Below, piece by piece: positions 2-17,335 of a DNA stretch of 64,000 nucleotides. Source of the stretch: Microbulbifer salipaludis (lineage in GTDB: Bacteria > Pseudomonadota > Gammaproteobacteria > Pseudomonadales > Cellvibrionaceae); assembly GCF_017303155.1 (NCBI RefSeq), contig NZ_JAEKJR010000002.1, forward strand, positions 310,001 through 374,000, given 5' to 3'. Position 1 is the first letter of the stretch; each line of letters opens with the position of its first letter. Both the position numbers and the translations under genes were made by a program. Under the pieces are notes generated by a model. That model did not search any database. It was not told the DNA's origin and saw only the letters and a list, made by a program, of their open reading frames with translations.

Positions 2-1366
2 CATCAACAGAAACAGGCACTGACAGCGAAGCAGGAAGCGGTTCGCCAGCAGCTGGGCATGCTCGAAGTCGAGTATGGTCAGGTTGATGGCAAACTGGAA
101 TCGCTGCGCGAAGATGGGGCCAAGCACCAGCTGCTGGATGAGATCTCCGATCGTCTCGCCAAGCTCGAGGATGCCGGCGCGGGCGATCTTTTCTGGGCCG
201 AGCACTACAAGCAGGATACGTCCAAGGCCCTGATTCATCGCTTGCAGAAAACCGTCAGCATCTATCATGCGAACCTGGACCTGTTGCTCGAGCGCAAGCG
301 CAAGCTGCAGGAGCAGATGGAAGACTGCCGGGATGATCTCTTCGATCTCGATGCCGAGTTCCGCGAGATTCGCCAGCAGGAAGAGGAGGTCCACTACGAG
401 TACGAAGTCACCCGCGAGCTGGGTGACGACGCCTTCCGCAATGCCATTATGCCGTGGAACACCAATGGCGACGATGAGCGGCGCTTCCGCCGGAGCCTGC
501 TCGCCTGCTTGCTGGCGGCCTTCTTCCTCGGCTTTGGGATCCATGTATGGCAGCTGCCGGAGCCCGATGAAAACGAAGTAGTCGAAGTGCCCGAGCGCCT
601 GGCCAAGCTCGTATTGGAGCAGAAAAAGCCCAAGCCCAAGCCGCAGCCTGTGGTGAAAAAGCCGGAAGAGAAAATCAGGGAACTGGAGAAACCCAAACAG
701 CAGGTGGCGAAAGAGGAGCCTAAGCCTTCTAATGTTGAGCGAAAACAGGTGCGCAAGAAAGTTGAGCGCGCGGGTGTCCTGGCCTTCAAGGACAACTTCC
801 AGGATCTGATCCAGGACGACCTCGACAATCGCCTCGGTCAGCAGACCCAGCTCAGCACCGCCGGTAAGAAAGAGAATCGCAGTCAGCGCTCACTGATCAC
901 CGCAGCCGCGAAGTCCGGCTCCGACGGTATCAATACCGCAGCGCTCAGCCGCAACGCCGGCGGTGTGGGTACGGCGCTGGATGGTGTGAGCTTCTCGCGG
1001 GTATCCAGTGGTATTGGCACTGAGGGCGATTTTACTGGCGAAGGCCGTCCGCTCAGCGATGGTGTGGGTCCATCCCGCACCGACGAAGAGATCCAGATCG
1101 TGTTTGACCGCTACAAGTCGGCCTTGTACCGGATCTACAACCGCGAACTGCGCAACAACCCGGCGCTGCAGGGCAAGATGGTGCTGAAAATCACCATCCA
1201 ACCGGACGGTTCCGTATCGTTGGCCGCGGTAGAAAGCAGCGATATGGACTCGCCCACCCTGGACAGCAAGATCGTTGCCCGCGTGAAGCGGTTTAACTTC
1301 GGGCCCAAGGAGGGTGTTCCTACGATCACCATCCTGTACCCGATCGACTTCCTGCCTGCAGCCTAG
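2..1366 (+). CDS. AgmX/PglI C-terminal domain protein, TonB-like (5' end outside window)
   Basis: The reading frame is open from the first bases, so the N-terminus lies outside the window. The visible part has a long charged helical region likely to form a coiled coil, then one hydrophobic segment near nt 480-546 (core LLACLLAAFFLGFG). A Lys/Pro-rich stretch of the KPKPKPQPVVKKPEEK type follows, then a Gly/Ser-rich linker, then a C-terminal domain (about nt 1080-1360, from IQIVFDRYKSALYRIYNREL) that matches the AgmX/PglI C-terminal family. That family is TonB/TolA-like, so the expected topology is an inner-membrane anchor with a Pro-rich periplasmic arm. Such proteins are usually encoded beside ExbB/ExbD-type motor genes, which would be upstream and cannot be checked here. 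A terminator follows, so it may not be cotranscribed with the giant gene downstream. The family call is fairly secure; the role is inference. Confidence 0.75.
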   Translation, partial: HQQKQALTAKQEAVRQQLGMLEVEYGQVDGKLESLREDGAKHQLLDEISDRLAKLEDAGAGDLFWAEHYKQDTSKALIHRLQKTVSIYHANLDLLLERKRKLQEQMEDCRDDLFDLDAEFREIRQQEEEVHYEYEVTRELGDDAFRNAIMPWNTNGDDERRFRRSLLACLLAAFFLGFGIHVWQLPEPDENEVVEVPERLAKLVLEQKKPKPKPQPVVKKPEEKIRELEKPKQQVAKEEPKPSNVERKQVRKKVERAGVLAFKDNFQDLIQDDLDNRLGQQTQLSTAGKKENRSQRSLITAAAKSGSDGINTAALSRNAGGVGTALDGVSFSRVSSGIGTEGDFTGEGRPLSDGVGPSRTDEEIQIVFDRYKSALYRIYNRELRNNPALQGKMVLKITIQPDGSVSLAAVESSDMDSPTLDSKIVARVKRFNFGPKEGVPTITILYPIDFLPAA

Positions 1367-1383
1367 AGGTCAGGTTGAAAAAC

Positions 1384-1421
1384 AACCACCCAGGTCTCCC
1401 CTGGGTGGTTCTGCCATTTCT
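1384..1421 (+). terminator. Intrinsic terminator after the AgmX-like gene
   Basis: An 11-bp perfect stem (AACCACCCAGG at 1384-1394 with CCTGGGTGGTT at 1400-1410) closes a 5-nt loop and is followed by a modest T-containing tail. It lies 18 nt after the stop codon. Confidence 0.75.
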
Positions 1422-1625
1422 TAAGAAGTTACCTGAGCTTTACTTGAGAACTAATTGGCAAACGTAGAAAAAGTTCCCCTCTGGCTGCAGCAATTTTGAC
1501 TTGCTTCACGCCCTCATTTTCAGCATATCGGTAAAGTCGCATCACCGGGCAGTGTGTGTACGGTTTATGTGCTCGCGCGGCCTGTGCGCGGAGCTTGAAA
1601 CCTGATTTGCGACGAAAAATAAACA

Positions 1626-4600
1626 ATGAAGCCAGATGTGATTGGACCGAAAACCTCGAATTCCCGCCAGGAAGGTTGGGCTTTATGCTCCGAATTCGGC
1701 CTGTCCCGAAATTGGGTGCGGGCGTTATTCGCATTTCTCCTGTCGTTCGCGTTTGCCCAGGTCGCACTCGCTGCTTCCTTCAAGACCACCGACTTTGCCA
1801 CCGACTCTGCTTTGCCTGGCACCCCGGGAACGCCCAGTGGCTGCTTGATCGATGGCCCTTACTACACCACAACCGATGGCACCGGCCGCACCATGGCGCC
1901 GGCGGACCAGCTGTCCATTGACCGCTCTTGTACCGTACAGAATTTCTCTTGTGATGTGCCCCTTGAGTCCACGCTGAACTTTGCCGGTGCCCCCGAGGGA
2001 ACCCTGATTATTTTTGATAATGTCTGCTTCGGCGGCAACTTTGCCTGTGCGAATGTGGAAGGCAAGGCGTCGGTGTGGGCGGTGAATGGCTCCGACTTCA
2101 GCACTGTACGTGAAGGCTGCCAGGACCTGATCATCCCGGTTGAAAAAATCGAGAAGCAGGCCACTGATCTTGCCGGTAACCCGATTGCATCGGTCTCGGT
2201 CGGTGTACCATTTGTGTACACCTTGGACATCCCGGTACTGTTCGACCCGGTTACCGGCACTGTGCTGCAGGACTCCGGCTCCCTGAACGATATCCAGGGA
2301 ATTCTGATTGAGGACAACCTTTCCGCAGCTGCCCTGGGTGTGGATCTGGATTTGCTGGATGTGCGGCTGTTTTACGAGGATACCAGCGGTGCAATTACTG
2401 CGATGTCGCCCTCCGCCTACTCGTTCAGTAACAGCGGTCCGGCAAACAACCCTGGTTTGCTGACCTTCCGCATCAATGACCCGAGTGTTCTGCCGGCCGG
2501 TGCCCAGATTCATATTGAGCTCGAGGTGGTGCTGGATGACACGCCGCTAAACAGCATTGGCAAGTCGTTTACCAATATCGCGACCTGGGAATTTGGTCGC
2601 GTTATTGATGGCATCTTCTACGATCCGCTGCCCGGTGAAAACGGCATTGCCCAGCTGTTAAGTATTTCTGCACCGGATCTGGTGCTGAGCAAAACCACCG
2701 ATGCCAGTGCGATCAACTTCGCCGATACGCCGACCTATACCATCAGTGTACAAAACGTGGGTGGGTCGCCGGCCTGGAATATTGAGGTCGAAGACTTGCT
2801 GCCAGTGGGTATGCGGGAGACGGCTCCGAGTATACAGAGCGTTAGCCTGGGCGGTGTGACGTTGACCGAGAGTGACGATTACACCCTGACCTACAACGCA
2901 AATGGCGCGAACGCGGGGTTGATGACCATCACGTTAACGGATGAGGCGGGTGGTCTCGCGTCTAACGCGGTACTGGAGATCGTGTATACCAGTCAGCTGG
3001 ATGATGTGTCGTCGGCCACAGCACCAGTAGATGGCGATGTGCTCACCAATGTGGCCGCGGCTACCGCCTGGTACAACGATTCCAGCGCGAACAACGACCG
3101 TATCGAATACACCGGTATGCGCTCGGACGGTACTACTAGTACCGACGACGAACAGGATGCTGCCTCGGTAACCGCCGCACTGTCGGGTTACTACTTCGAG
3201 AAGACCGTCAGTAACGTCACTACCGGCCAGTCTCCGACTGCTTCGGCGGCACCGGGCGATCGTCTGCGCTATCGCCTGCGCCTGTTTAACCTCGATGAAA
3301 ATATTTACAACGTAGTGATCACCGATCAGCTCGACGCGGCTAGCTTTGATCTGGCTTCCGCGGCGGTTGATACGGCGACTTGTCCGGCGGGTGCCACCTG
3401 TACCTTTAACGGTGCCGGCCTGTTGACCGTGAGCGGTGACCTGGATGTGCTCCCCGGTACGGCACTCGCCTCGATTGCGGTGGAATTCGAGGTAAATGTC
3501 CTGAATTCACTGAGCACCGGTGACGTGGTGAGTAACCAGGCGCGGATGGATGCGGAAGATGACGATGTTAGTGGTACGGCTTTCTCCGCGTTGAGCGATG
3601 ACCCCAACGATGCCGATGGCGTGGTCAACCAGGCCGATCCCCAGGGTAACCCAATCAACCCAACGGAAATCGTGATTATTTCGCCTGGGACGCTGGACAA
3701 GCAAAACCCCACTGGCGTCAGCCAGGTGGCGATTGGTGAGGTTTTCGAGTATCGCATTCTGGTGCCTGCCGCCACGGTGCCGGCCCCGCTTTACGATGTG
3801 CAGGTGAATGATCAGCTGCCGACCAACCTCGAACTGGTTGGCGCAACGGCGCTGGTAAACGGTGTCAATTACACCCTGAGCAACACCGGCAGCGCCAACA
3901 GTCTCGTGCTGGTGGAAGCAGTTACCGGTATCGATATTCCGGCCAATCAGCAGGCGGAAGTCAGCGTGCAGGTGCGCCTGAAAAATCGCATGGAAAACCA
4001 GGATGCGGTTACCTTCACTAACACCGCCAGCTACACCTACAGCCGTACGCAGGGTGGTATCCAGAGTAGCGATGCGGGAACCGCGGCCACCACCGCAGCG
4101 CTCACCATAATCGAGCCGAATATTACTGCCACAACCAGCGTGGTGAATAATTCCCGCGGTGGCACCAGTGCGTATGGTGGCGATGTTCTGCAGTACACCA
4201 TCGCGCTGGCTAACAACGGCACCTCCACGGCCTACGATCTCGCGATTGAAAACACCCTTACCGCCAGCCAAACCCTGGTGGCGGGCAGCGCACAGGTTAC
4301 TGTGGGCGGCACCACAACTGCGTTGGCACCGTCCGTGAGTGGCGATGTGTTGAGCTGGGGGCGCAGCAGCGGGCAAGAGCTGGATATTGCGGTGGGCGAC
4401 ACGCTTACGCTGACCTATCAGGTGGCCGCAAATGGCGTGGATGGCAGCGACCTGAGCAATAGTATCGTTGCCGACTGGACCTCCCTGGATGGCGCTGACG
4501 TGGAAGAGCGCACAGGCAATGATGCGCCGGATACTACCGCGCTGAATGATTACTTTTTTGTCGACGAGCTGCTGATGACGACGGTCGACAATTCGGCCAT

Positions 4601-7600
4601 CGCAAAAACGGTGCTGAGCGATACCTGGAGTAGTGGCATCGCCACCACCGCAGATACCAACGCCCGTGCCGGCGACACCGTGACCTATCAACTGGCGCTC
4701 ACCTTGTCCGAGGGGCTGAATCGCGACGTCGTGGTGACCGATGTGTTGGACCCGGGTCTGGCGTTCGTGGAAGTGGTCAGTATCAACGGTGCTAGCAGCG
4801 CACCCTATACCGCGAGCGGCGTATTTTCCTACGCAGATATTCCCGCGGCGAACGTACCCAGCGCGGACCAGACCGGTACCCTGACCTGGACCCTGGGTGA
4901 TATCACCAACACGGCAGACCAGAATCTGGCGAATGATACCCTCGTCATTGTTTACCGCGCGCGGGTGCAACACGGTGCGGCCGATAGCCCGGCAGCTACC
5001 CCCACTTCCACCGTGCTAAACAACCAGGCCACCCTGGGTTACATCTACGCCACAGGCGTTGCCGCATCTACCACGCCCGATGCCGCCAGTGTGGAAGTAC
5101 TACAGCCGCAGATTACCGCGCTGACCAAAACCGGAACGGTATTACCGGCCAGTGGCAGCGTCGTGGGCGATGGCCAGTCTTCTGCCACCGCCTATCTGGT
5201 GGATATCGTCAATAACAGCATGCAGTTCGCGATCGAGGCGTGTAACGTCGGTGATGCGCCGGCTTACGGCGTGACCCTGAACGACGACCTCCCGGCAGAG
5301 CTTGATGAGGGCTCTATTAGCAGCATCGTGGTCGCCATTGATGGCACCGCGCTGGACGCGGCGGACTACAGTTACACCGCACCCGCTGGGCGTGATGGCG
5401 AAATGGCGTTTTCCCTGAACGTTGCCCTCGACCCCGCCAGCTGCGTCACCGTGGATTATCAAATTGGTTTTTATACCGACGTCGCGCCGGACCAGACCTG
5501 GTCCAACACCGCTTCGCTTGTTGCCTACTGGTCCCGGGAAACTCTGGATCCGGCGGATGCGCGGGAATATGTCGCGATTAATCCGGTAGCCGCCGCCAGC
5601 GTCTGGATGACCAACAACTTCCAGGTCGAAGCGCCCACCAAAACCGTATCGAAAACGCAGGCGACCATTGGCGAAGAAGTGGTGTACACCATCACCGTAC
5701 CGGGTGTGCCAGTGAACGGTATTTTGAGTGGGGTGAGTGTTAGCGATACGCTGGATCAGGCGCTGCAATACGTCGATGCCACAGTTGAATTGAATGGTGC
5801 CGCACTCGCGCTCGTACCGGTGCAGAGCGGGCAGGACCTGACCTGGGCCATCGGCGATATTCCTGCGGGCCAGCAGGCGGTGATCACCCTGACCACCTGG
5901 GTGGCCAACACGCAGAATGTCAGTGCCAGTGCCACGCCGGTGGCAAACGTTGCCGCCTATACCTATCAGGCGGGTGGCAGTGCTGTGGATGGCGGCAGTA
6001 GTGCGCCGGCCGAATTCACCGTCGTTGAGCCAAACCTTTCCGTAGTCAAAGATGTCGCCAACCTGACAGACCCCGGACAACCTGCGGCCACTGGCGATGT
6101 GCTGGAGTACACCCTCACCATTACCAACGAGGGTGACGCTTCCGCCTTTGATACCAACATTGCCGACATGCTGCCGGCGGAGCTTAGTTATGTGGATGGC
6201 TCTGCGGTTGCATTGCTGGATGGCGGCGCGCTTGCCGGGTTCAATGCGACACCTTCGGTCAGTGGCAATACCCTGAACTGGGGCCGCGATAACGGTGATA
6301 GTTCGGTGCAGATCCCCGCGGGCAGCGTGTTGGTCGTTACCTATCAGACCGATGTAAACAGCATTACCGCTGCGGATATCGTCAACAGTGCACTGGTGGA
6401 CTGGACGTCGCTCACCGGTACTTATGTTGGTGAGCGCGAGCGCACCGGGGCCGGCTGTCCCAGCGTTACCCCGCCCAACACCTATTGCAGTGGCGATACC
6501 AGCGGTTTCGGTGTCGATTACGATATCGATCTGCAGAAGGCCCGTCAGGGTGATAGCTGGAACAACGACGGCAATCTGCGGGTTGGTGACACCGTCGATT
6601 ACCAGTTACAGATCGATCTCGTTGAAGGCGAGCACGATGGTGTCGTGCTGGAGGACACACTGCCGCAGGGTATGGCCTTTATCGGCGTGTTGAGTGCAGA
6701 GTTCTTTGGTACCCCCGCAGCCACACCCCCCAGTCCGACCGTCAGCGCCGATCAGCGTACCATTACCTGGGATCTGGGTTCGGTCAGTAATCCGGCGGAT
6801 GGCAACGATGCCAACGACTTCCTGACGATTACTTATCGCGCCCGCGTGCTGAATGGTGACGTCCTGTCGCAGCAGCCTGTTTCGCAGGCGTTGAACAACG
6901 TCGTAACCCTGAATTATCTGGTGGGGAGCGCACCGGGTGCGCCGCTGACCACCAGCGCCAGCGTAAATGCATTGCAGCCACTGCTCACTGTGAGTAAGTC
7001 TGCGGTGACCGCTATTAATGGCGATACCGAAATTCAGGCCGGTGAGACGGCCACTTACACCGTCGATATCACCAACGCCGGCAACGCACCGGCCTACGAT
7101 GTGGTGCTGGAAGATGTATTGCCCATTGGCCTGCGCGATGGCGGGGTTAGCATGCAAAGTGCGACGCTGGTCAACGCGGCGGCCAGTATCACCCTGACGC
7201 CAACCTATGATCTGGCCAGTGGAACCGCGACCTGGGACTTCGATCCCGCTGCCAACGCTGCAATTCCGGCGGGCGAAACCTTGCGGGTGGTCTACCAAGT
7301 TACTGGTGATGCCGACCTCGGCGCCGGCCTGACCCTGACCAACAGCGCGCAGGTAACGCGCTATTACTCCTTCGACAATGATCAGGTGCCGGCCAACAGC
7401 CTGGTGGACTGGCGTGAAGAGTACGGCCCCTCAGATGTCGCCACGTTTAACCTGACCACGCCGGTAGCCGGCGTGCTGAGTAAAGCGTCGGCGCAGACCT
7501 CCGTGGCGCTCGGTGAACAGCTGACCTACACCCTGACCGTGCCCGCAACACCGGTAAATGTTGCGCTGGAAGATGTGCGCATCATGGACAACCTCGCGGC

Positions 7601-10600
7601 GACGGGCGTGGATCTCGCTTTTGTTTCCGCCAATGTTGTCAGTGGTAATGCACTGAGCAACAGTGGTGCCGATGATGACCTGGTGCTTGCAGACACCGGT
7701 GGTGGGCTGAATATTCCCGCCGGCGCGCAGGTCGAGGTCGAGGTAACGGTCGCAGTATTGAATACCGCGAACAATCAAAGCCGCACCGACCCCTTTGTTA
7801 ACCGCGCCTGGTATGACTATAGCAACGGTGTGACGCGTCTCGGTAACGATGCGACTACTGGAGGCGATGCCAACCCGGTGACCATCGTGCATGCGGAACT
7901 GGAGGTGGAAAAAACCGGCCCGGCAACCATCCAGGTGGGCACGCCGGAAAACTTTACCCTGACCGTACGCAACAACAGTCCCGCCAGCGCGTGGAATGTG
8001 ACACTGACCGACTGGCTGCCCAATCCGGAGCCGGGCGGCATGTGCGATGTTGAGCCGGTGATTCAGTCTGCGGCGATCTTGAAAGCCGATGGCTCCACGG
8101 TATCTCTGGCCCCCGGCGACTTCGCGGTAACCTTTGTTGACGGCACACCGACGTGTGAATTTTCTGCGAGTTTGCAGAGCGACGACGAACTGGCAGCGGG
8201 CGATGCGCTGACCCTGGTGTATCAGGTTGAGCTGGATGGCGACAACATCAACGATACCACCCTGACCAATATCGCCGGTGCTACCCAATGGTTCAGTGCC
8301 GAAGCGGCAGCCGCAGAGCGCTTCGCCTATCAGCGTGCACTGACGGATGGTAGCCCCGGTGTGGTTGATCATGAGGACAGCCATAGCTTCACCGTTCTGT
8401 CGGCGATCCTCGAAGTGCGTAAATCGGTGTTCAACGTGACCACCGGCCAGTCCGGCGCAGAGGCAAGTCCCGGTGATCACCTGCGTTACAGCATTGAAAT
8501 TCAGAACGTCAGCGATGTGCCGCTGGACGCATTTGTACTGCGTGACGAACTGGATCGCCTGAATGGCAGCGCGATGTTCCAGGTCAATTCACTGCGCGAT
8601 GTCTCCGCACCTGCTGGCGCGACGGTCAATGTAGTCGCCGACGGCGGGGCGCAGGCCAGTGGTCTGCTTGAGGTAGCCGACCTGGCGATTGCCAGGGCGG
8701 GAGAAGCGGGCGATACCATCACCGTCACGTTTGACGCGGATCTGGTGCCGGTCATTACCAGCGGCACCGTGGTACTCAATCAGGCGCAGCTCAGCATGAG
8801 CGACGTGGTGTTTGCGTCCAGTGATGATCCGTCTGTGGGCGGCAGTGAAGACCCGACCGAAACTCTGATCAACTCCGCGCCCTGGCTTTCGATACAGAAA
8901 ACTTCACAGGACCTGACCGGTGACCCCGAGATATTGGCACCGGGCGACAGCCTGCGCTACTCGCTCACTGTGGAAAATACCGGTAGTGAAGACGCCATCA
9001 ACACCGTCCTGCGCGATCTGGTGCCGGGCAACACCACCTATGTGGCGAATTCCACCACGTTAAACGGTGTACAGGTTGCGGATGTTAATGGCTCTACCGC
9101 ACTGGCCACCGGTATCCCTGTGCAGACGCCGGGTGAAGAGAGCGGGCTTGTGGTTGCCGCAGCCAGTGGCGCGGCGCCGGCGGTGATCACGTTTGATGTT
9201 GTGATCAACGACGTGAACGACGGAACTGTGATTTCCAACCAGGCGTTCGCCAACGGCGATGGCGCAGGTAGCGGTGGGTTCGCGGAGCGGCCATCGGATG
9301 ACCCTGCGACCACCATCGTGGACGACCCCACCGTTGATATTGTCGGTGATGTGCCGCTGCTGGTTGCCACCAAGACTGTACAGCTGGTGGTCGACAACAT
9401 CTCTGCCGGTATTGTGGATCCGGAAGATGTATTGCGTTACACCATCGCCGTTACCAACCTGGGCGGTAAAGATGCGAGTGAAGCACGGCTGGTTGACCTG
9501 GTGCCTGCGGGCACCAGCTATGTGGCCAACAGCACCAGGTTGAATGGGACTGCTGTCGCCGATGATGCGGGTGCGTCCCCACTGGTCGCCGGGCTGGCGA
9601 TCAGCAGTGACGATTTGACGCCGCCATTACCGGCGACCGGTGAAGGCATTATTACCAGTGCGCAAACCGCCGTGGTTGAGTTTGATGTGATGGTCAACGC
9701 GGACACCGAACGCGGCACTATCATCAGCAACCAGGGCAGTGTGTACAGTGTCGAAATGCCGCTCACGCTCACCGATGCCGACGGCAACAGCAGTAACGGT
9801 GCCCAGCCCACCGAGGTTGTGGTGGGAGACGCCCAGCAATTGTCGATCACCAAAGAGGTCGCGGTAGTCGGTGGTGGTGACGCCGAGTCTGGCAAGGTCC
9901 TGGAATATCTGGTGCGGGTAACCAATATCAGCAGCGTGCCGGCCAGTCTTATTGTGATTCGTGATGACCTGCTTTCCGCGGGTGATGGTGTGCTCACCTA
10001 TGTCGCAGATTCTGCGCAGGTGAATGGCCAGCCCGGCGGTGTTGCGGTGAACGGCTCCGTCATTACCGTGGACTACAGTACCAACTACGGTGACCTTCTG
10101 CCGGAGCAAGTCGCCACCCTGCGTTTCCAGGCGCGCCTGGGCCCGAATCTGGCGATAGGCACTTCGGTAGTTAACACCGCCCAGGTGCAGTGGAACGATC
10201 CGGCGATGGTCAACGAGGCCAGCGTTGCCATCGATATCGGTGGCACCCCCGGCATTGCCAATCTTTCCGGCTACCTGTGGCATGACGGCAACTTCAATGA
10301 AGTACTCGACACGAACGAGTCGCTGCTCAGTAACTGGAATGTGGAGCTGTACTTCAACAATTCGCTGCTGGAGACCGTAACGAGCGACGAAAATGGCTTC
10401 TTTGTGTTTGATGGGCTGGTGCCGAACATGGACGGCGCAAATGTGCCAGGCATCAGTTACGAGATTCGTTATCGCGCCCCAAATGCCAGTGGCAGCACGG
10501 CTTCTCTCGGTACCGCCAGCTCCGAATACACCAATGGGCCGCAGCAGATTCTCAATATCTATGTGGAGTCTGGCGCGAACCCGCAGAACCTGAACCTGCC

Positions 10601-12176
10601 GATTACACCCAATGGAGCCATCTACGACTCCGTACTGCGTGCGCCGGTCAACGGTGCACGGGTGCGTTTGTTGAGTGCCTCCAGTGGGCAGCCGCTGCCG
10701 GACAGTTGTTTCGATGATGCCAAGCAACAAAATCAGGTCACGCTCACCGGCGGCTTCTACAAGTTCGATGTCAACTTCAGCAGTGCCGCCTGTGCGATCA
10801 ACGCGGACTACCTGATCGAAGTGGATGTGCCCAGTGACAACTACGTGTCTGGCCCATCGCAAATCATCCCGCCGCAAACCGCTGTGGATACCGGCAGTTT
10901 CGATGTGGCGGCATGTCTCGGCAGTGCGGCGGACAGAAATCCGGCAACGCCAGACCACTGTGAAGTGCAGTCTTCGGCGACACCACCGCCTGTAGATATC
11001 GATGCGCGCAGTAGCGAGACCGATTACTACCTGCGCCTGAATCTGGATGACAGCAATCAACCCGGAAGCAGTCAGCTATTTAACAACCACATTGCGCTGG
11101 ATCCGCAGTTGGACGGTGCGTTGGCGCTGACCAAAACCGCCGCCATGCTCAATGTCACGCGCAGTCAGCTGGTGCCTTACACCATCGCCTTCAACAATTC
11201 GCTGCCGGTACCGCTGACGGACCTGCAGCTGGTGGATTACTTCCCTGCAGGCTTCAAGTATGTGGCCGGCTCGGCAAGCCTCGACGGCGTGCCCATGGAG
11301 CCTGAGGTTAATGGGTTGCAATTACAGTGGTCGCAGTTGCGCGCAGACCCTGAAAAAACTCACAGCATGAAGCTGTTACTGGTGGTGGGTTCCGGTGTGG
11401 GAGAAGGTGAGTACATCAACCGTGCCCGTATGTTCAATGGGCTTTCCGGACAACAGTTGTCTGGTGAAGCGTCGGCCACCGTGCGCGTGGTACCCGACCC
11501 GACCTTCGACTGTACCGATGTGATCGGCAAGGTGTACGACGATAAAAACCTCAACGGTTACCAGGACAACGGTGAAGGCGGTGTCGCCGGAGCGCGCGTA
11601 GTGACGGCGCAGGGCCTGCGCGCTACCACCGATGCCCACGGCCGTTTCCACATTACCTGTGCGGCGGTGCCGAACCCGGACCGCGGCTCCAACTTCGTGC
11701 TGAAGCTGGACGACCGCAGCCTGCCCAGCGGCTACCGCCTGACCACGGAAAACCCGCGGGTTCAGCGCGCCACCCGAGGCAAGATGCTGGAGTTCAACTT
11801 CGGTACCAGCCTGCACCGCGTAGTACGCCTGGATCTGGCGGAAGCGGTGTTTGAACCAGGCTCAGCCGAGCTGCGTCCGCAGTGGCACTCGCGCACCGAG
11901 CTGTTGCTGGAGCGGCTGCAGGAGGCGCCTTCGCTATTGCGCCTTTCGTACCTGGCGGAGAATGAAGATCCCGCACTGGTCGACGCGCGCCTTGCCGCGA
12001 TCAAGGCCCGCATAGCCGAAGACTGGGCGGCGCTGGATTGCTGCTATCCGCTCAATATTGAAACCGAGATTTTCTGGCGCCGTGGCGCGCCGCCCGAGCG
12101 CGGCAGTGTGCTGGACGGGCTCAAACGCAGTGTGAACCGCATGATCGGAAGTAATGATCAGGGAGGAGCCCGCTAA
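1626..12176 (+). CDS. Giant secreted DUF11-repeat protein with SdrD-B-like domains and a C-terminal OmpA-like remnant
   Basis: This 3,516-residue protein begins with a long n-region and a hydrophobic core (ALFAFLLSFAFAQVALAA, ending near residue 49), so it is probably exported. The ATG at 1626 has no clear ribosome site; an in-frame GTG at 1716 just before the hydrophobic core is an alternative start. About 18 DUF11-type beta-sandwich repeats follow, beginning near residues 172, 352, 522, 689, 831, 982, 1162, 1336, 1470, 1632, 1785, 1949, 2092, 2262, 2421, 2579, 2739 and 3166. Each has a 'YTxxVxN' strand and a 'DxLP' turn. Two SdrD-B-like domains (near 2881 and 3297, the second with DKNLNGYQD, a calcium-binding-like loop) flank the last repeat. 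The final ~100 residues resemble a degenerate OmpA C-terminal domain (FEPGSAELRP). The stop overlaps the next start (TAATG), so the two genes are translationally coupled. An adhesin or surface-fibre role is inference. Confidence 0.85.
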   Translation: MKPDVIGPKTSNSRQEGWALCSEFGLSRNWVRALFAFLLSFAFAQVALAASFKTTDFATDSALPGTPGTPSGCLIDGPYYTTTDGTGRTMAPADQLSIDRSCTVQNFSCDVPLESTLNFAGAPEGTLIIFDNVCFGGNFACANVEGKASVWAVNGSDFSTVREGCQDLIIPVEKIEKQATDLAGNPIASVSVGVPFVYTLDIPVLFDPVTGTVLQDSGSLNDIQGILIEDNLSAAALGVDLDLLDVRLFYEDTSGAITAMSPSAYSFSNSGPANNPGLLTFRINDPSVLPAGAQIHIELEVVLDDTPLNSIGKSFTNIATWEFGRVIDGIFYDPLPGENGIAQLLSISAPDLVLSKTTDASAINFADTPTYTISVQNVGGSPAWNIEVEDLLPVGMRETAPSIQSVSLGGVTLTESDDYTLTYNANGANAGLMTITLTDEAGGLASNAVLEIVYTSQLDDVSSATAPVDGDVLTNVAAATAWYNDSSANNDRIEYTGMRSDGTTSTDDEQDAASVTAALSGYYFEKTVSNVTTGQSPTASAAPGDRLRYRLRLFNLDENIYNVVITDQLDAASFDLASAAVDTATCPAGATCTFNGAGLLTVSGDLDVLPGTALASIAVEFEVNVLNSLSTGDVVSNQARMDAEDDDVSGTAFSALSDDPNDADGVVNQADPQGNPINPTEIVIISPGTLDKQNPTGVSQVAIGEVFEYRILVPAATVPAPLYDVQVNDQLPTNLELVGATALVNGVNYTLSNTGSANSLVLVEAVTGIDIPANQQAEVSVQVRLKNRMENQDAVTFTNTASYTYSRTQGGIQSSDAGTAATTAALTIIEPNITATTSVVNNSRGGTSAYGGDVLQYTIALANNGTSTAYDLAIENTLTASQTLVAGSAQVTVGGTTTALAPSVSGDVLSWGRSSGQELDIAVGDTLTLTYQVAANGVDGSDLSNSIVADWTSLDGADVEERTGNDAPDTTALNDYFFVDELLMTTVDNSAIAKTVLSDTWSSGIATTADTNARAGDTVTYQLALTLSEGLNRDVVVTDVLDPGLAFVEVVSINGASSAPYTASGVFSYADIPAANVPSADQTGTLTWTLGDITNTADQNLANDTLVIVYRARVQHGAADSPAATPTSTVLNNQATLGYIYATGVAASTTPDAASVEVLQPQITALTKTGTVLPASGSVVGDGQSSATAYLVDIVNNSMQFAIEACNVGDAPAYGVTLNDDLPAELDEGSISSIVVAIDGTALDAADYSYTAPAGRDGEMAFSLNVALDPASCVTVDYQIGFYTDVAPDQTWSNTASLVAYWSRETLDPADAREYVAINPVAAASVWMTNNFQVEAPTKTVSKTQATIGEEVVYTITVPGVPVNGILSGVSVSDTLDQALQYVDATVELNGAALALVPVQSGQDLTWAIGDIPAGQQAVITLTTWVANTQNVSASATPVANVAAYTYQAGGSAVDGGSSAPAEFTVVEPNLSVVKDVANLTDPGQPAATGDVLEYTLTITNEGDASAFDTNIADMLPAELSYVDGSAVALLDGGALAGFNATPSVSGNTLNWGRDNGDSSVQIPAGSVLVVTYQTDVNSITAADIVNSALVDWTSLTGTYVGERERTGAGCPSVTPPNTYCSGDTSGFGVDYDIDLQKARQGDSWNNDGNLRVGDTVDYQLQIDLVEGEHDGVVLEDTLPQGMAFIGVLSAEFFGTPAATPPSPTVSADQRTITWDLGSVSNPADGNDANDFLTITYRARVLNGDVLSQQPVSQALNNVVTLNYLVGSAPGAPLTTSASVNALQPLLTVSKSAVTAINGDTEIQAGETATYTVDITNAGNAPAYDVVLEDVLPIGLRDGGVSMQSATLVNAAASITLTPTYDLASGTATWDFDPAANAAIPAGETLRVVYQVTGDADLGAGLTLTNSAQVTRYYSFDNDQVPANSLVDWREEYGPSDVATFNLTTPVAGVLSKASAQTSVALGEQLTYTLTVPATPVNVALEDVRIMDNLAATGVDLAFVSANVVSGNALSNSGADDDLVLADTGGGLNIPAGAQVEVEVTVAVLNTANNQSRTDPFVNRAWYDYSNGVTRLGNDATTGGDANPVTIVHAELEVEKTGPATIQVGTPENFTLTVRNNSPASAWNVTLTDWLPNPEPGGMCDVEPVIQSAAILKADGSTVSLAPGDFAVTFVDGTPTCEFSASLQSDDELAAGDALTLVYQVELDGDNINDTTLTNIAGATQWFSAEAAAAERFAYQRALTDGSPGVVDHEDSHSFTVLSAILEVRKSVFNVTTGQSGAEASPGDHLRYSIEIQNVSDVPLDAFVLRDELDRLNGSAMFQVNSLRDVSAPAGATVNVVADGGAQASGLLEVADLAIARAGEAGDTITVTFDADLVPVITSGTVVLNQAQLSMSDVVFASSDDPSVGGSEDPTETLINSAPWLSIQKTSQDLTGDPEILAPGDSLRYSLTVENTGSEDAINTVLRDLVPGNTTYVANSTTLNGVQVADVNGSTALATGIPVQTPGEESGLVVAAASGAAPAVITFDVVINDVNDGTVISNQAFANGDGAGSGGFAERPSDDPATTIVDDPTVDIVGDVPLLVATKTVQLVVDNISAGIVDPEDVLRYTIAVTNLGGKDASEARLVDLVPAGTSYVANSTRLNGTAVADDAGASPLVAGLAISSDDLTPPLPATGEGIITSAQTAVVEFDVMVNADTERGTIISNQGSVYSVEMPLTLTDADGNSSNGAQPTEVVVGDAQQLSITKEVAVVGGGDAESGKVLEYLVRVTNISSVPASLIVIRDDLLSAGDGVLTYVADSAQVNGQPGGVAVNGSVITVDYSTNYGDLLPEQVATLRFQARLGPNLAIGTSVVNTAQVQWNDPAMVNEASVAIDIGGTPGIANLSGYLWHDGNFNEVLDTNESLLSNWNVELYFNNSLLETVTSDENGFFVFDGLVPNMDGANVPGISYEIRYRAPNASGSTASLGTASSEYTNGPQQILNIYVESGANPQNLNLPITPNGAIYDSVLRAPVNGARVRLLSASSGQPLPDSCFDDAKQQNQVTLTGGFYKFDVNFSSAACAINADYLIEVDVPSDNYVSGPSQIIPPQTAVDTGSFDVAACLGSAADRNPATPDHCEVQSSATPPPVDIDARSSETDYYLRLNLDDSNQPGSSQLFNNHIALDPQLDGALALTKTAAMLNVTRSQLVPYTIAFNNSLPVPLTDLQLVDYFPAGFKYVAGSASLDGVPMEPEVNGLQLQWSQLRADPEKTHSMKLLLVVGSGVGEGEYINRARMFNGLSGQQLSGEASATVRVVPDPTFDCTDVIGKVYDDKNLNGYQDNGEGGVAGARVVTAQGLRATTDAHGRFHITCAAVPNPDRGSNFVLKLDDRSLPSGYRLTTENPRVQRATRGKMLEFNFGTSLHRVVRLDLAEAVFEPGSAELRPQWHSRTELLLERLQEAPSLLRLSYLAENEDPALVDARLAAIKARIAEDWAALDCCYPLNIETEIFWRRGAPPERGSVLDGLKRSVNRMIGSNDQGGAR

Positions 12177-15100
12177 TGTTCCGTCCTTCAACCTATAAAC
12201 TGGCCGTGATCGTTGCCGCGCTGGCGAGTAGCCCAGCGCTGGCCCAGGACGACGGTGGCAACGACGCCTCCTGGTGGCAGAAAATCCCGGGCCTGTCACC
12301 GCAACTCGAGAGCGCGGGGGATTACACCGACAAGCCCCTCGGCAGCAATACCGAGACCACCCTGATCCCCGCTGCCGGCCAGCTGTGGGTACAGGATGCG
12401 GAAACCTTTATCGACCCGGAACAGCCGGTGGTGGAAAGCGACGTATTGCCGCCACTGCTTTATCGCACTGTCGATGACGAGATAGATGCGGAACTGGTGG
12501 CGCAGCTGCAGGAAAAGCTGGCGGCACTGGAAGGAGCCCACGAGCTGCAACTGGTCTTCACCGCGCACACCGACAGCGAGCCCCTGTCTGAGGGCGAGCA
12601 GGGCGAGTTCGACGATAAAGTCGCGTTTACCGCCGCGCGCGCCAAGCAGGTAGCCGAGTATTTCCAGATGGCGCTGGAGCTGCCGGAAAACGCGGTGGTA
12701 TTCGAGGGGCGTGGTGACAGCGAACCCTTGACGGAAAACATCACGGAAAAGGGCCGCGAGCTCAATCGGCGCGTGGACGTGAAGCTGCGCTATTTCGAGC
12801 TGGATCAGCAGGCTCGCGACGCACAGCGCCGTGCCGAGGCGGCCCAGCTCAACCGCGTTCAGGTCTGCCGTCAGGAAACCGTGTGTAAACTGCGTTACAC
12901 CGCGGGCGCCGACAAACGCGCACGCCTGAAAAATCTGGTATCCCCGCTGCGCCTGCAGCCCGGCCAGGTTGACCTGCCGGCCGCGTTTGTGCGCCGGGTG
13001 CAGGAAGTGCGCAATACCCTGCTGGAAAAGCCCAATCTCACCATTCACTTCGTCGGCCACACCGATGGCAAGCCGCTGCCAGAAGGCCCGGCGGAGCTCT
13101 ACGATGACCAGATGGCCCTGTCTCGTGCGGAAGCACGCCGGGTGGCACTGGCGGTAGCGGATCAGCTGAATCTGCCGGGCTACATGGTGACCAGCAGCGG
13201 TAAGGGTTCCAGCCAACCCATCGCCGCAAACGACACTGCCAAGGGGCGCGCCCTGAACCGCCGTGTGGAAGTGGAATTCTGGTACGACGACCTGCTGGAA
13301 ACTGCGGCCGACGGCCTGCAGGCCTGTCCGGAGTCCGCCGCCGCAGAAACCATTACCATTGCGCACGAGTCACCCACCGGCGATATCCCGCCGATTTTCC
13401 TGAACAGCGGTGATCCGCAGATCTCCAGCGCACAACTGGCGCAGATGCAGCGCCTGATGGATGAGGTGGCGGGCAAGCAGAATGTGCGCCTGAGCTTTGT
13501 CGGTTACAGCGATAACAAGCGCATGGAGCGCCGCGAGGCCATGGTCTACGGCGATGATGTGGGTCTGTCTGCGGCGCGTGCGGAAAAGGCCATGCGTGCG
13601 GTACAGCAGCACCTCGACCTGGAAGACGCGCAGGTGGAATTTGAAGGCCGCGGTTTTGTGGAGTCCAACGACGTGGTGCAGACCGGCTTTATCCACATGG
13701 ATGGCGCGCGCGTGGAAGTGCAGGTGCTGTACGATGAACTTGCGGTGCTCGCGGAAAAAGACCGGCTGGAAATCGAACGCATTCAGCAGGAGGCGGAAGC
13801 CCATAACCCCTACGCGCTGAACCTGATGCGTATCACGGTAGACGGTGCGCCGGAGTACGATCCCTACAAAAATTCCGCGGACCTGCAGCGTTGTACCGAT
13901 GTGGCGCTGGAGAGTGCCAATATCCAGTTTCGCTTTGACAACCAGGCCATGCAGCCGCGCCTGAATGTCACCGCGTTCCCGAGCACCATCCGCTATGCCG
14001 ATGACCCGGAGACGGAAATCGCCGACAGCCGGGTGCAGTTCAAACGCTACACCAATTACCCGTCGTTTATTACCCGTGCGGAAGTGCGCATCTTTGAAGA
14101 AGATCAGTCCCTGCGCGACGAGCCGCTGGCCGTGGTCACGCTGGATCAGAACGGTGAGGGCAGCTGGGACGCAGACTTCGAGTCCTACCAGGCACCGCTG
14201 AAAAAACTGCAGTACCTACTGCGCGTGTATGACTGGAAGCAGCGCTTCGACGAAACCCGGCCGCAGACCCTTTGGCTGGTGGACAATTTCGAACCAAGGC
14301 TGCAGGAGGCCACCACCGAGCAGGAACTGTTGGTGGGCTACGGGGAAAACCGTCTCGCGGAACAGAATATTCCCGTCAGTGGGAATGCGGTGCTGGTCAA
14401 CGGCTCGGACATTCCCACCAACCACAGCGTGTGGCTGGCGGGGCGCGAGGTGCCGGTGAGCAGCGGTGGTGATTTTGTTGCCGAAGAAATTTTTGCCAAG
14501 GGCCTGCACACCGTGGAAGTGGCGGTACTGGATGATGCGGGTAACGGCGAGCTGTTCCTGCGGGATCTGGAGTTTACCCGGGACGACTGGTTTACCGTGG
14601 GCATTGCCGACCTTACCGTTGCCCGGGACGACACCAACGGCCCGGCCGCGCTGGTAACCGGGGACGAAACCCACTACGACAACTCCGCCAGTTACGACGG
14701 TCGCCTGGCCTTCTACACCAGCGGTAGCTTCGGCGATGGCTGGCGTCTTGCGGCGAGTGCCGACACCGAGGAAGGTCCGGTAGAGGACCTGTTCACCAAC
14801 TTCATGGAAAAGAACCCCGACGCGCTGTTTCGTCGTCTGGACAGCGATCTCTACTATCCGACGTTCGGTGACGACTCCACCGTGGTGGAGGACGCGCCGA
14901 CATCCGGCAAGTTCTACATCAAACTGGAAAACTACGACGATTACGGCCTGTGGGGTAACTTCAACGCGTCCTACACCGACAACGAGCTGGCACATATCGA
15001 CCGCGCGCTCTACGGGGCCAATTTCCATTTTGAGACGGACGATGTCACCGGCTTTGGGGACAAGCGGTTCCAGGTTGATGCCTTTAGTGCGGAGCCGGGC

Positions 15101-17335
15101 ACCGTTGCCGGCCGCGATGAATTCCGTGGAACCGGTGGTTCCCTCTACTACATGCGTCACCAGGATATTCTCACCGGCTCCGAACGGCTGCGGGTAGAGG
15201 TGCGGGATAAAAACTCCGGCATCGTGCTGGGGGTGAAAAACCTCACGCCGGTGATCGACTACGATGTGGATTACATTCAGGGCCGCATTCTGTTGAACCG
15301 CCCGCTCTCTGCCATCGCCAACGACAACCTGATCGTGCAGGACGGCTCCTATAACGGCAATCCGCAATATCTGGTGGCCCGCTACGAATACACACCGGGC
15401 TTTGATGATCTGGATACCCTGGCGGTGGGTGGCCGCGCGCATTACTGGGCCGGAGATCATGTGAAGATCGGGGTAAGCGTCAGCCAGCAGAACGAGGAAG
15501 ACAACGAGTCCTCGCTGAACGGTGTGGATCTTACCCTGCGCAAAACCGCCGGCACCTGGATGAAAGTGGAAGTGGCGGAAAGCCAGGGGAATACCCTCAA
15601 CAGCCTCTCGTCCCTCGACGGTGGTTACAGCTTTAGTCCCGGTGGCTTTGATCAGGGCAATACAGTGCAAACGCCGCTGGATCCGGATGCCAAGGCCGGG
15701 GCCAGCAAATTCGAAGCCGCCGTGCAGATGGGGGATTTCTTCGAGGGCATGCGCGGTTCCGCCTCGGTTTACGCGCAGCAGCGTGAAGCGGGTTTCGCGG
15801 CACCGGGGCAGTTGGCCACCCGCGAGACAGAGCAGTACGGTGCTGCCGTCAGCGTGCCCATTGGCGAGCGTTTCGATATTGGCCTCAAGACCGATACCCG
15901 TGAACAGCAGCAGGGGCTGCAGACCGAAGCCACCGATGTGGAACTGGGCTATCGCCTGAGCGACCGCTGGCGCCTTGCCGCCGCTGCCCGCGCAGATTCC
16001 CGCGAGGACCTGTCACCGGTGGTGCCGCTCACGCAAAAGCAGGGCGAGCGCACCGATGTGGCGGTGCAGGCCAGTTACGATTCCGGTGCTGACTGGAGCG
16101 CCTTCGGATTTGTGCAGCGCACCGCGGAGCTGTCCGGCAACCGGGATGAAAACAACCGGGTTGGTTTTGGTGGGGCTTACCGGGTGAGTGATCGCCTGAC
16201 CCTCGACAGTGAGCTATCCGGTGGCGATACCGGCACCGCCGCGCGCCTGGGGACCGATTTCCTGGTAACCGACCGCACCAATCTTTACCTGAATTACACC
16301 CTCGACAATGAGCGCACGGATACCGGGGTGCGGGCACGCAAGGGCAACCTGAACAGCGGCTTCCGCAGCCGCTTCAGTGATACCACGAGTATTTACGGTG
16401 AGGAGCGCTACACCCACGGCGATGTGTCCACCGGCCTCACCCACGCCCTGGGTGTGGACCTGGCTCCCAGTGATCAATGGAATTACGGCACCAGCCTGGA
16501 AGCGGGCACACTGGAAGATCCGCGCACCGGCGCCGAAACCGAGCGCCGCGCCATGGGCGCCAGCATGGGCTTCAACGATGGCAGCCTGCGTCTGTCCAGC
16601 GCGGTGGAATACCGGGTGGATAACATGCAGATGCTTTCCGGTAGCGGCACCGAGGACGACCCGCAGAGCGTATTGGAAAACGAGCGCAAAACCTGGCTGT
16701 TAAAAAATACGCTCAGTTTCCAGCTCAGCCCGGACTGGCGCCTTGTGGGCAAACTGAATTACTCCGATAGCGAAAGTTCTCAGGGCCAATTTTACGATGG
16801 CAAATTCACCGAAGGTGTCATGGGTTACGCCTATCGCCCGGTGAACAATGATCGCTGGAATACTCTGCTGAAATACACCTACTTCTACAACGTGCCAACC
16901 AGAGACCAGGTGCTGGTAACGTCAGGCAGTAGCAGCAGTGCCGTTGAGTTTGTACAGAAGAGCCACATTTTCTCGGTAGACACCAATTACGATCTGACCC
17001 AGCGCTGGACCCTGGGCGCCAAGTACGCCTATCGTCTGGGCCAGTTGAGTATGGAGCGGGAAAACCCGGAGTTTTTCGATAGTGCTGCCAGCCTGTATGT
17101 GCTGCGTGCCGACTGGCACTTCGTGAACAAATGGGATCTGCTGATCGAAGGGCGCCTGCTGGATCTGCCGGATGCCGGCGACCGCAAAAGCGGTGCCCTG
17201 GTGGCGCTGTATCGCCAGATGGGACGCAACTTCAAGGCGGGTATCGGCTACAACTTTACCGACTTCTCTGACGACCTGACCGACCTCGACTACGACAGCC
17301 AGGGCGTGTTCATCAATATGGTGGGTAAGTTCTAA
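12176..17335 (+). CDS. Outer-membrane protein with three OmpA-like modules and a C-terminal beta-barrel
   Basis: The 1,719-residue product starts at an ATG overlapping the preceding stop, with a good ribosome site (GGGAGGA, about 8 nt upstream). A signal peptide ends near ALAQDD. Three OmpA/MotB-like modules lie at about residues 105-215, 240-370 and 390-525; modules 1 and 2 keep the HTD motif (TAHTDSEPL, VGHTDGKPL) and the LNRRV motif, while module 3 is divergent (VGYSDNKRM). A mixed periplasmic region follows, then from about residue 870 a long run of alternating polar/hydrophobic strands ending in Phe (NMVGKF), typical of an outer-membrane barrel. The OmpA-like modules should bind peptidoglycan. 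Coupling to the DUF11 giant suggests this protein anchors, exports or assembles it; that is inference. Confidence 0.8.
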   Translation: MFRPSTYKLAVIVAALASSPALAQDDGGNDASWWQKIPGLSPQLESAGDYTDKPLGSNTETTLIPAAGQLWVQDAETFIDPEQPVVESDVLPPLLYRTVDDEIDAELVAQLQEKLAALEGAHELQLVFTAHTDSEPLSEGEQGEFDDKVAFTAARAKQVAEYFQMALELPENAVVFEGRGDSEPLTENITEKGRELNRRVDVKLRYFELDQQARDAQRRAEAAQLNRVQVCRQETVCKLRYTAGADKRARLKNLVSPLRLQPGQVDLPAAFVRRVQEVRNTLLEKPNLTIHFVGHTDGKPLPEGPAELYDDQMALSRAEARRVALAVADQLNLPGYMVTSSGKGSSQPIAANDTAKGRALNRRVEVEFWYDDLLETAADGLQACPESAAAETITIAHESPTGDIPPIFLNSGDPQISSAQLAQMQRLMDEVAGKQNVRLSFVGYSDNKRMERREAMVYGDDVGLSAARAEKAMRAVQQHLDLEDAQVEFEGRGFVESNDVVQTGFIHMDGARVEVQVLYDELAVLAEKDRLEIERIQQEAEAHNPYALNLMRITVDGAPEYDPYKNSADLQRCTDVALESANIQFRFDNQAMQPRLNVTAFPSTIRYADDPETEIADSRVQFKRYTNYPSFITRAEVRIFEEDQSLRDEPLAVVTLDQNGEGSWDADFESYQAPLKKLQYLLRVYDWKQRFDETRPQTLWLVDNFEPRLQEATTEQELLVGYGENRLAEQNIPVSGNAVLVNGSDIPTNHSVWLAGREVPVSSGGDFVAEEIFAKGLHTVEVAVLDDAGNGELFLRDLEFTRDDWFTVGIADLTVARDDTNGPAALVTGDETHYDNSASYDGRLAFYTSGSFGDGWRLAASADTEEGPVEDLFTNFMEKNPDALFRRLDSDLYYPTFGDDSTVVEDAPTSGKFYIKLENYDDYGLWGNFNASYTDNELAHIDRALYGANFHFETDDVTGFGDKRFQVDAFSAEPGTVAGRDEFRGTGGSLYYMRHQDILTGSERLRVEVRDKNSGIVLGVKNLTPVIDYDVDYIQGRILLNRPLSAIANDNLIVQDGSYNGNPQYLVARYEYTPGFDDLDTLAVGGRAHYWAGDHVKIGVSVSQQNEEDNESSLNGVDLTLRKTAGTWMKVEVAESQGNTLNSLSSLDGGYSFSPGGFDQGNTVQTPLDPDAKAGASKFEAAVQMGDFFEGMRGSASVYAQQREAGFAAPGQLATRETEQYGAAVSVPIGERFDIGLKTDTREQQQGLQTEATDVELGYRLSDRWRLAAAARADSREDLSPVVPLTQKQGERTDVAVQASYDSGADWSAFGFVQRTAELSGNRDENNRVGFGGAYRVSDRLTLDSELSGGDTGTAARLGTDFLVTDRTNLYLNYTLDNERTDTGVRARKGNLNSGFRSRFSDTTSIYGEERYTHGDVSTGLTHALGVDLAPSDQWNYGTSLEAGTLEDPRTGAETERRAMGASMGFNDGSLRLSSAVEYRVDNMQMLSGSGTEDDPQSVLENERKTWLLKNTLSFQLSPDWRLVGKLNYSDSESSQGQFYDGKFTEGVMGYAYRPVNNDRWNTLLKYTYFYNVPTRDQVLVTSGSSSSAVEFVQKSHIFSVDTNYDLTQRWTLGAKYAYRLGQLSMERENPEFFDSAASLYVLRADWHFVNKWDLLIEGRLLDLPDAGDRKSGALVALYRQMGRNFKAGIGYNFTDFSDDLTDLDYDSQGVFINMVGKF

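Follow-up and report, generated by a model that had tools for sequence, protein, structure and literature searches.

A giant DUF11 fibre protein and a triple-OmpA barrel protein encoded beside an ExbB/ExbD-type motor cluster: a possible motor-linked surface machine

Introduction

Two very large genes of the marine bacterium Microbulbifer, one coding for a secreted repeat protein and the other for an outer-membrane protein, share a single base at their junction and lie just downstream of the gene for a TonB-like protein. Do these proteins belong to one surface system, and if so, what might it do? They are found in a stretch of 64,000 nucleotides (G000:C2:310001-374000; henceforth the window), assigned to this genus by its named relatives, for which the original prediction had proposed a joint action of the three at the cell surface. 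We addressed the question entirely by computation, with the ORF starts in all loci being set mechanically (longest or earliest).

Results

Organization of the gene cluster

The two large genes are the last members of an 11-gene co-directional cluster, which extends beyond the upstream edge of the window, where ExbB, ExbD and TPR genes lie on the same strand (locus L101). The nine genes 5' of the pair code for a coiled-coil-like protein of 175 aa (cc175), three TPR proteins (TPR696, TPR1118 and TPR195), a small secreted protein of 106 aa (x106) for which a family search gave no match, one ExbB, two ExbD and an AgmX/PglI TonB-like protein. The cluster is preceded by molybdenum-cofactor genes and pyruvate kinase, and is followed by genes for a PepSY protein and a TonB-dependent receptor and by rimP-nusA-infB-truB. 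Both ORFs of the pair are as originally delimited: the first occupies 1626..12176 (+, 3,516 aa) and the second 12176..17335 (+, 1,719 aa). Their TAATG overlap (12174..12178, +) likewise holds, with the stop TAA at 12174-12176, the start ATG at 12176-12178 and base 12176 common to both; the purine-rich stretch AGGGAGGAG lies directly 5' of this ATG. A strong hairpin (1384..1410; -23.2 kcal/mol for 1370-1430, z -3.3) is located in the transducer-DUF11 intergenic interval and is terminator-like on the minus strand only. Terminator-like elements in this interval do not exceed chance (1 found against 1.1 expected), and neither does anything in a promoter scan of it. Given the 260-base gap and the hairpin before the DUF11 gene, it is possible that the fibre-barrel pair is transcribed separately.

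The presence of ExbB and ExbD genes upstream had been named as a check, and one ExbB (MotA_ExbB match, E 1.6e-23) and two ExbD (E 1.5e-11 and 1.2e-15) are indeed found there. The ExbB is distant from the TolQ/ExbB proteins of solved structure (best E 1.4e-5). By eye, and from mechanical starts, the N-termini of TPR195 and TPR1118 are lipobox-like, and those of cc175, TPR696, x106 and the barrel protein resemble signal peptides. The transducer (2..1366, +) was correctly assigned to the AgmX/PglI TonB-like family, as it scores 66.4 bits against NF033768 (cut-off 40); its frame opens 11 bases 5' of the window (G000:C2:309990), giving 458 aa from the earliest start. A single likely membrane helix and a Lys/Pro-rich linker were discerned in it by eye; its N-terminal part is long, and its C-terminus is TonB-like, reaching 21.5 bits with TonB_C, below the cut-off of 24.6. 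Its match to the GltG equivalog NF033760 is partial (63.3 bits, or 57.8 in the genome search, against a cut-off of 650), and no FHA domain was matched in it by Pfam. Among the upstream genes the NCBIfam GltE model, built on the M. xanthus family, gives a partial match of 34.7 bits. From the Group A genes of the Myxococcus gliding machinery (gltA, B, F, H, I, J, K) and its adhesin CglB, GltJ alone was hit, by a partial match of 26.7 bits (cut-off 450) in the scan of the window proteins. An MglB-type Roadblock domain (PF03259) was not found in this genome (0/1), with a control search being positive in 3 of 14 genomes; thus, a Myxococcus-like control of gliding is unsupported.

The fibre protein

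The first protein of the pair is a secreted DUF11 (CLIPPER) repeat protein of giant size; by eye, it probably starts with a signal peptide. Pfam recovers 12 DUF11 stretches (E 9.6e-79) together with DUF7619, DUF7507 and SdrD_B, and NCBIfam recovers 14 TIGR01451 and 9 TIGR04226 (RrgB-type isopeptide) stretches; a search against PDB sequences gave no match. The protein can be divided into a conserved N-terminal region (approximately residues 90-330; 1893..2615, +), which shows at most 46% identity to relatives outside Microbulbifer; a variable DUF11 array (approximately residues 330-2500; 2616..9125, +), which differs between species in the manner described below; and a conserved C-terminal dock (residues 3160-3490; 11103..12095, +) comprising the last DUF11 domain, an SdrD_B-like domain and a truncated OmpA-like tail. 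Two loci, L085 and L098, have the cluster with what appears by eye to be a different fibre N-terminus.

In the last DUF11 domain a Lys-Asp-Asn triad (K3170/D3204/N3265) is present in all 55 aligned sequences and has the order and spacing of K715/D748/N806 in the solved CLIPPER domain 9IFR. The predicted model of residues 3160-3516 (pLDDT 84, pTM 0.55) retrieves 9IFR with Foldseek (TMt 0.75). Over the whole protein, a loose pattern finds 10 candidate triads, where 200 shuffled versions gave 1.3 on average and never more than 6; several DUF11 domains of the fibre are thereby predicted from sequence to be locked by isopeptide bonds. We had also entertained a self-cleaving Asp-Pro bond in the last DUF11 domain, and dropped it because CLIPPER domains are reported to form an isopeptide bond between Lys and Asn.

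The claim that this protein ends in an OmpA-like remnant stands in part. HHalign relates the tail to OmpA only weakly (E 0.0009-0.013, probability 3-24%), which we regard as too weak by itself, and no OmpA chain appears in the Foldseek or VIA-align lists for the dock model, which mostly test model residues 3-238. The support comes instead from the beta-alpha-beta-alpha-beta topology predicted for the tail and from the motor-free relative L134, whose DUF11 protein ends, by eye, in a seemingly complete OmpA-type domain.

The barrel protein

The three OmpA-like modules at the start of the second protein are recovered by Pfam and are related to one another by HHalign (E 4.7e-47 for modules 1 and 2, 1.5e-28 for 2 and 3). 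We scored in them the columns of D241 and R256 of E. coli OmpA, which we take to be the Asp and Arg of the peptidoglycan-binding pocket. Module 1 (residues 85-206; 12428..12793, +) has D133 in 74 and R155 in all 76 of the 76 aligned sequences. Module 2 (residues 255-372; 12938..13291, +) has D297 in 73/76, its Arg column 319 being Arg in 44/76 and Glu in the present protein. Module 3 (residues 398-522; 13367..13741, +) has R468 in 76/76 and D446 in 23/76. The pair is thus kept in module 1 only. C231, C237 and C384 are found in all 76 aligned sequences. The proposal that both proteins may meet at the peptidoglycan is accordingly borne out only in part: module 1 has both residues, modules 2 and 3 do not, and no GHTD-type motif was found in the fibre tail.

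Beyond the modules lie a beta-rich, Ig-like region of predicted strands (approximately residues 560-800; 13853..14575, +) and a giant beta-barrel with roughly 40 predicted strands (approximately residues 839-1719; 14690..17332, +), which may rival the largest known. Residues 540-1719 are modelled with moderate confidence (pLDDT 71, pTM 0.59) as an outer-membrane-type barrel, as the original prediction had anticipated. Fold matches of the model include SprA, LptD and the FimD usher; the matches to giant barrels are unspecific (rmsd 5 to 38 A), those at ranks 2 and 3 of the Foldseek list being to a very large barrel with low TM-scores (0.12-0.20), and the highest TMq among the 50 matches listed (0.23-0.24) belongs to the Deinococcus S-layer deinoxanthin-binding complex (8agd, 7zgx). 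The barrel profile found no sequence match among PDB chains, and Pfam detected no autotransporter barrel or usher domain in the protein. The PDB profile search lends homology to SprA no sequence support, and the fold match to SprA is low-scoring. Several database relatives of the barrel protein carry the name "flagellar motor protein MotB", a misnomer that apparently stems from the OmpA modules only.

Conservation of the neighbourhood

Co-occurrence of the two proteins in other genomes had been set beforehand as a check, and it was borne out in the best 80 of 139 loci found, a set that leans to close relatives and includes many metagenome bins. A DUF11 ORF with the conserved C-terminus adjoins the barrel gene in 76 of these 80 loci, and in the remaining four the barrel ORF starts less than 50 bases from a contig end. 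Overlaps are common at the junction: among 75 junctions (leaving out L052, with its split barrel ORF) the genes overlap by 1 base in 11 and by 4 bases in 33 when the mechanically longest start is used. Of the 24 loci with at least 1 kb before the start of the DUF11 ORF, 17 have the transducer gene immediately 5' of it and 2 have it on the downstream side, and in two more (L082 and L094) the whole nine-gene set is adjacent but divergent. The three left over are L055 (fragmented ORF), L067 and L087. For L055, another stretch of the same genome (L154) does show a DUF11 gene adjoining the transducer gene. L087, from a Woeseiaceae bin, has a second, broken barrel gene 5' of its fibre-barrel pair (coordinates 14-4709 and 9877-14895).

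The converse search, starting from the motor, gave a congruent picture. When the ExbB of the cluster was searched in 34 of the 80 genomes, 32 had a match at E <=2.3e-62, with the best match in the other two reaching only E 7.6e-12 and 3.4e-5. Across 26 stretches around cluster-type ExbB genes the nine-gene order is identical, save for cuts by contig ends (L115, L123, L152). A DUF11 or barrel gene is adjacent in 21 of them: 16 are collinear, two permuted (L109 and L114, from Desulfuromonadales) and two divergent (L151 and L153), and L154 is also collinear. The five without such a neighbour are L111, where the contig begins soon after the transducer gene; L149, which has no DUF11 match as far as the contig end; and L124, L150 and L152, which score like the short motor form described below. 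The nine-gene motor set stands beside DUF11 or barrel genes in Gammaproteobacteria, Betaproteobacteria, Acidobacteria and Desulfuromonadales.

Within Microbulbifer a full-length barrel protein is encoded in 24 of 25 genomes, the exception being 80% complete, and all 24 carry the transducer gene on the same contig and strand at a distance of 10.3-23.6 kb. None of 13 genomes from other families of the order has a full-length barrel. In an evenly drawn sample of 370 genomes of the class, the barrel protein is matched at E <=1e-60 in 34, with the OmpA part included in 15, and TPR1118 is matched in 89. Ranked by TPR1118 score, the first 15 places are taken by precisely those genomes whose barrel bears the OmpA part (798-2,462 bits; the next genome has 711). 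The two genes share contig and strand in 10 of the 15 and are on different contigs in five draft genomes.

Motor-free pairs, fused proteins and a short motor form

Each half also has relatives that lack the other. A shorter nine-gene motor form with neither DUF11 nor barrel gene is seen in L125-L130 (L127 being cut), and seems to be commoner than the long form in the class sample. One such motor/TPR set (L125; G000:C1:672001-692000, 4369-13776, minus strand) is a second set in the very genome of the window. Conversely, five DUF11-barrel pairs (L134-L137 and L140) have no motor in the stretch. By Pfam, the barrel protein of these pairs has one OmpA domain in L135, L137 and L140 and none in L134 and L136; the triple OmpA goes with the motor, the five motor-free pairs examined having one or none. 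The fibre dock of the window is common to four of the five motor-free DUF11 partners (L135, L136, L137 and L140; E 3.5e-131 to 3.6e-125 and better).

The two partners are also found as a single polypeptide in L102, L131/L132, L133 and L139, with an Ig-repeat version in L138. L131 and L132 (G167:C2:428001-468000) hold an 11,777-aa open frame that combines a DUF11 array with a C-terminal barrel match. In L102 (G000:C2:1-12000), DUF11, SdrD_B, OmpA and barrel-like parts are joined in one ORF of 2,037 aa (3482-9595, +). Near the contig start it is preceded by shorter frames that also bear DUF11, and SpaA_4 domains are found in a following ORF at 9592. The two halves are not strictly dependent on each other, since pairs and fusions exist without the motor and the short motor form exists without DUF11 or barrel. 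The fused, motor-free and L134-type relatives make plausible an evolutionary path that would lead from a fused protein to a split pair and then to a motor-linked pair.

Exchange of the fibre array between species

Comparison of the window with related loci showed array and barrel to diverge to different degrees. Against M. agarilyticus (L024, L032) the array is 92-98% identical per 250-residue block, leaving out the first block, which is cut by the locus, and the barrel is 86% identical. In the comparisons with L022 (M. elongatus) and L023 (an uncultured relative) it is the barrel that is 92-93% identical, with the array at 15-49% up to about residue 2500 and at 74-96% thereafter. The third-position agreement with M. 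agarilyticus at conserved degenerate codons is 77-89% over residues 0-2500, 59-66% over residues 2500-3500 and 55-56% in the barrel gene. A related pattern is seen in the tandem fibre-barrel copies (L031/L033 and L037/L039) of Microbulbifer sp. YPW16 and M. sediminum: their barrel proteins are identical, as are the last 581 and 557 fibre residues, respectively, and most of the array is only 23-56% identical, so that the tandem copies carry two different array types (A/B). The simplest reading of these sequence patterns is that arrays were swapped by recombination while dock and barrel stayed fixed. Such an exchange favours a surface-exposed, diversifying role for the fibre part, and would be a case of the exposed part of a fibre being exchanged between species with its dock and barrel kept constant.

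Discussion

A motor-linked machine and its alternatives

That the fibre, barrel and motor parts form one system, as originally proposed, is well supported, all of them being encoded in one conserved cluster. We consider it probable that they constitute a single trans-envelope, motor-linked giant fibre or adhesin machine. In such a machine the ExbB/ExbD-type proton motor, with one ExbB and two ExbD, would move the AgmX/PglI TonB-like transducer, and the TPR proteins would pass force over the periplasm to the OmpA modules of the giant outer-membrane barrel. The barrel would grip the fibre, with its some 20 or more Ig-like domains of the DUF11/CLIPPER type, through the conserved C-terminal dock, and would probably also have exported it. 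The machine might then pull on the fibre, move it or change its position on the cell surface, comparable to the Agl-Glt motor and adhesin in Myxococcus; on this analogy the part of the adhesin would fall to the DUF11 fibre, which the barrel would hold in the outer membrane. Counting against this reading are the halves that occur alone, the two of 34 genomes with no close ExbB relative, the hairpin 5' of the DUF11 gene, the negative search for a Roadblock domain and the moderate confidence of the barrel model. The protein contacts, force transfer, surface exposure and biological output are what we infer from these comparisons: a role in fibre assembly, adhesion or motility may be envisaged, and adhesion or surface translocation is thought the most likely output.

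Other explanations deserve to be weighed against this one. The barrel could chiefly translocate the DUF11 protein in an autotransporter-, two-partner- or SprA-like manner, with the motor powering or gating export. Such an energised secretion would account for the constant adjacency of barrel and fibre, contig ends apart, and for the fusions in which the barrel forms the C-terminal part, and it can draw on the SprA, LptD and FimD fold matches. We nevertheless hold it to be somewhat unlikely: the existence of motor-free pairs means that export is not generally motor-dependent, the giant-barrel fold matches are unspecific, Pfam detected no autotransporter or usher domain in the second protein, and the barrel profile has no sequence match in the PDB. 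An unlikely reading, too, is that of a passive envelope brace, in which the OmpA barrel would tie the outer membrane to peptidoglycan, the DUF11 protein would have a structural role as coat or stalk, comparable to the Deinococcus S-layer complex, and the motor would act on envelope integrity in a Tol-Pal-like way. The intact binding pair of module 1 and the place of the Deinococcus complex among the Foldseek matches listed speak for it; the exchange of whole arrays between species and the A/B array types are unexpected of a purely structural part, and modules 2 and 3 lack the full pair.

A further objection is that an adhesin pair merely happens to lie beside an unrelated motor cluster. Each half does occur alone, and separate transcription is possible, but the adjacency is kept in three arrangements (downstream, upstream and divergent) across several phyla, two sets of 15 coincide perfectly in 370 genomes, and three OmpA modules accompany the motor against one or no OmpA hit in five motor-free barrels. 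Chance gene context is therefore very improbable, and we reject it on the adjacency and co-occurrence counts.

Returning to the motor-linked machine, we offer one extension of it more tentatively than the machine itself: the standalone Agl-Glt-type core of Proteobacteria might in its long form be the motor of a machine with a barrel of about 40 strands, three OmpA modules and an isopeptide-locked, exchangeable fibre, and gliding machines could perhaps derive from such a motor-driven giant adhesin.

Comparison with known systems

The cluster shares with the Tol-Pal and Ton systems the ExbB/ExbD/TonB-type motor parts and the OmpA-type wall binding, and differs from them in its distant ExbB, two ExbD, TPR set and giant outer partners. 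The Deinococcus S-layer complex (7zgx, 8agd) is similar in its large barrel, as found in the Foldseek list. It combines an N-terminal wall-binding part with a C-terminal barrel, its wall-binding domain being other than the OmpA type seen here, and we know of no motor cluster associated with it. TraA and TraB, the outer-membrane exchange proteins of myxobacteria, are an adhesin and an OmpA-domain partner, as in the present pair; however, the match of the OmpA region to the TraB model NF033763 (39.9 bits, cut-off 700) is far under the cut-off and reflects the generic OmpA fold, and both the size and the barrel differ.

The fibre is closest to the CLIPPER fibrillar adhesins. PMC12617251 describes DUF11 as an isopeptide-forming CLIPPER stalk domain, and gives as an example B9T28_05395 of Acinetobacter silvestris (PDB 9IFR). 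The features by which such adhesins are recognised are found here, namely tandem DUF11 domains, a long protein, a signal peptide (by eye) and the triad (predicted bond). The arrangement of a tandem DUF11 stalk with Lys-Asp-Asn isopeptide triad and OmpA-like C-terminal anchor is likewise as in that text. Where such adhesins carry an N-terminal adhesive domain that binds a ligand, the present fibre has its conserved N-terminal region. The present system departs from the CLIPPER adhesins in that the anchor of its fibre is degenerate, three OmpA modules and a giant barrel being encoded by a second, downstream gene, and in that a motor cluster lies alongside.

In kind and number, rather than by M. 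xanthus sequences, the nine genes upstream of the pair resemble the Agl-Glt core. Luciano et al. 2011 (PMC3169522) define an Agl-Glt "Group B" core (gltC, D, E, G, aglR, Q, S) in Gammaproteobacteria and Geobacter; they further report the core from Gammaproteobacteria, one betaproteobacterium and Geobacter, and call its function in non-gliders unknown. The machines for gliding and for the spore coat are considered to have arisen from this motor-plus-TPR core, according to PMC3169522 and Wartel et al. 2013 (PMC3858216), the latter terming the core a possible basal transport machinery. In Myxococcus, the system consists of the motor, the envelope Glt complex and the surface adhesin CglB, as stated in PMC13104615. 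Like the Group B core, the present set has one ExbB, two ExbD, one TonB-like transducer and three TPR proteins in one cluster, with a partly identical order (TPR-TPR-TPR ahead of motor and transducer), and it occurs in Gammaproteobacteria, Betaproteobacteria and Desulfuromonadales, in keeping with the spread reported for the core. Membership in the Agl-Glt group is unproven, because the transducer scores well short of the GltG cut-off and gave no FHA domain match, and the comparison is one of kind and not of M. xanthus sequence.

What had been predicted as a possible new surface system is to be called new only with care, as its nine-gene motor set looks like the core of PMC3169522 and its DUF11 domains belong to the CLIPPER type of PMC12617251. 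Among the titles and abstracts listed by our literature searches, none describes a DUF11/barrel pair together with the core. In comparison with the Agl-Glt core, the present system has two extra small genes and, in addition, the DUF11 fibre and the triple-OmpA barrel, neither of these two partners being mentioned in the accessible portion of PMC3169522. A motor core of this widespread type, to which no function had been assigned, is here linked in several phyla with two named partners in the outer envelope, which suggests what it may serve for.
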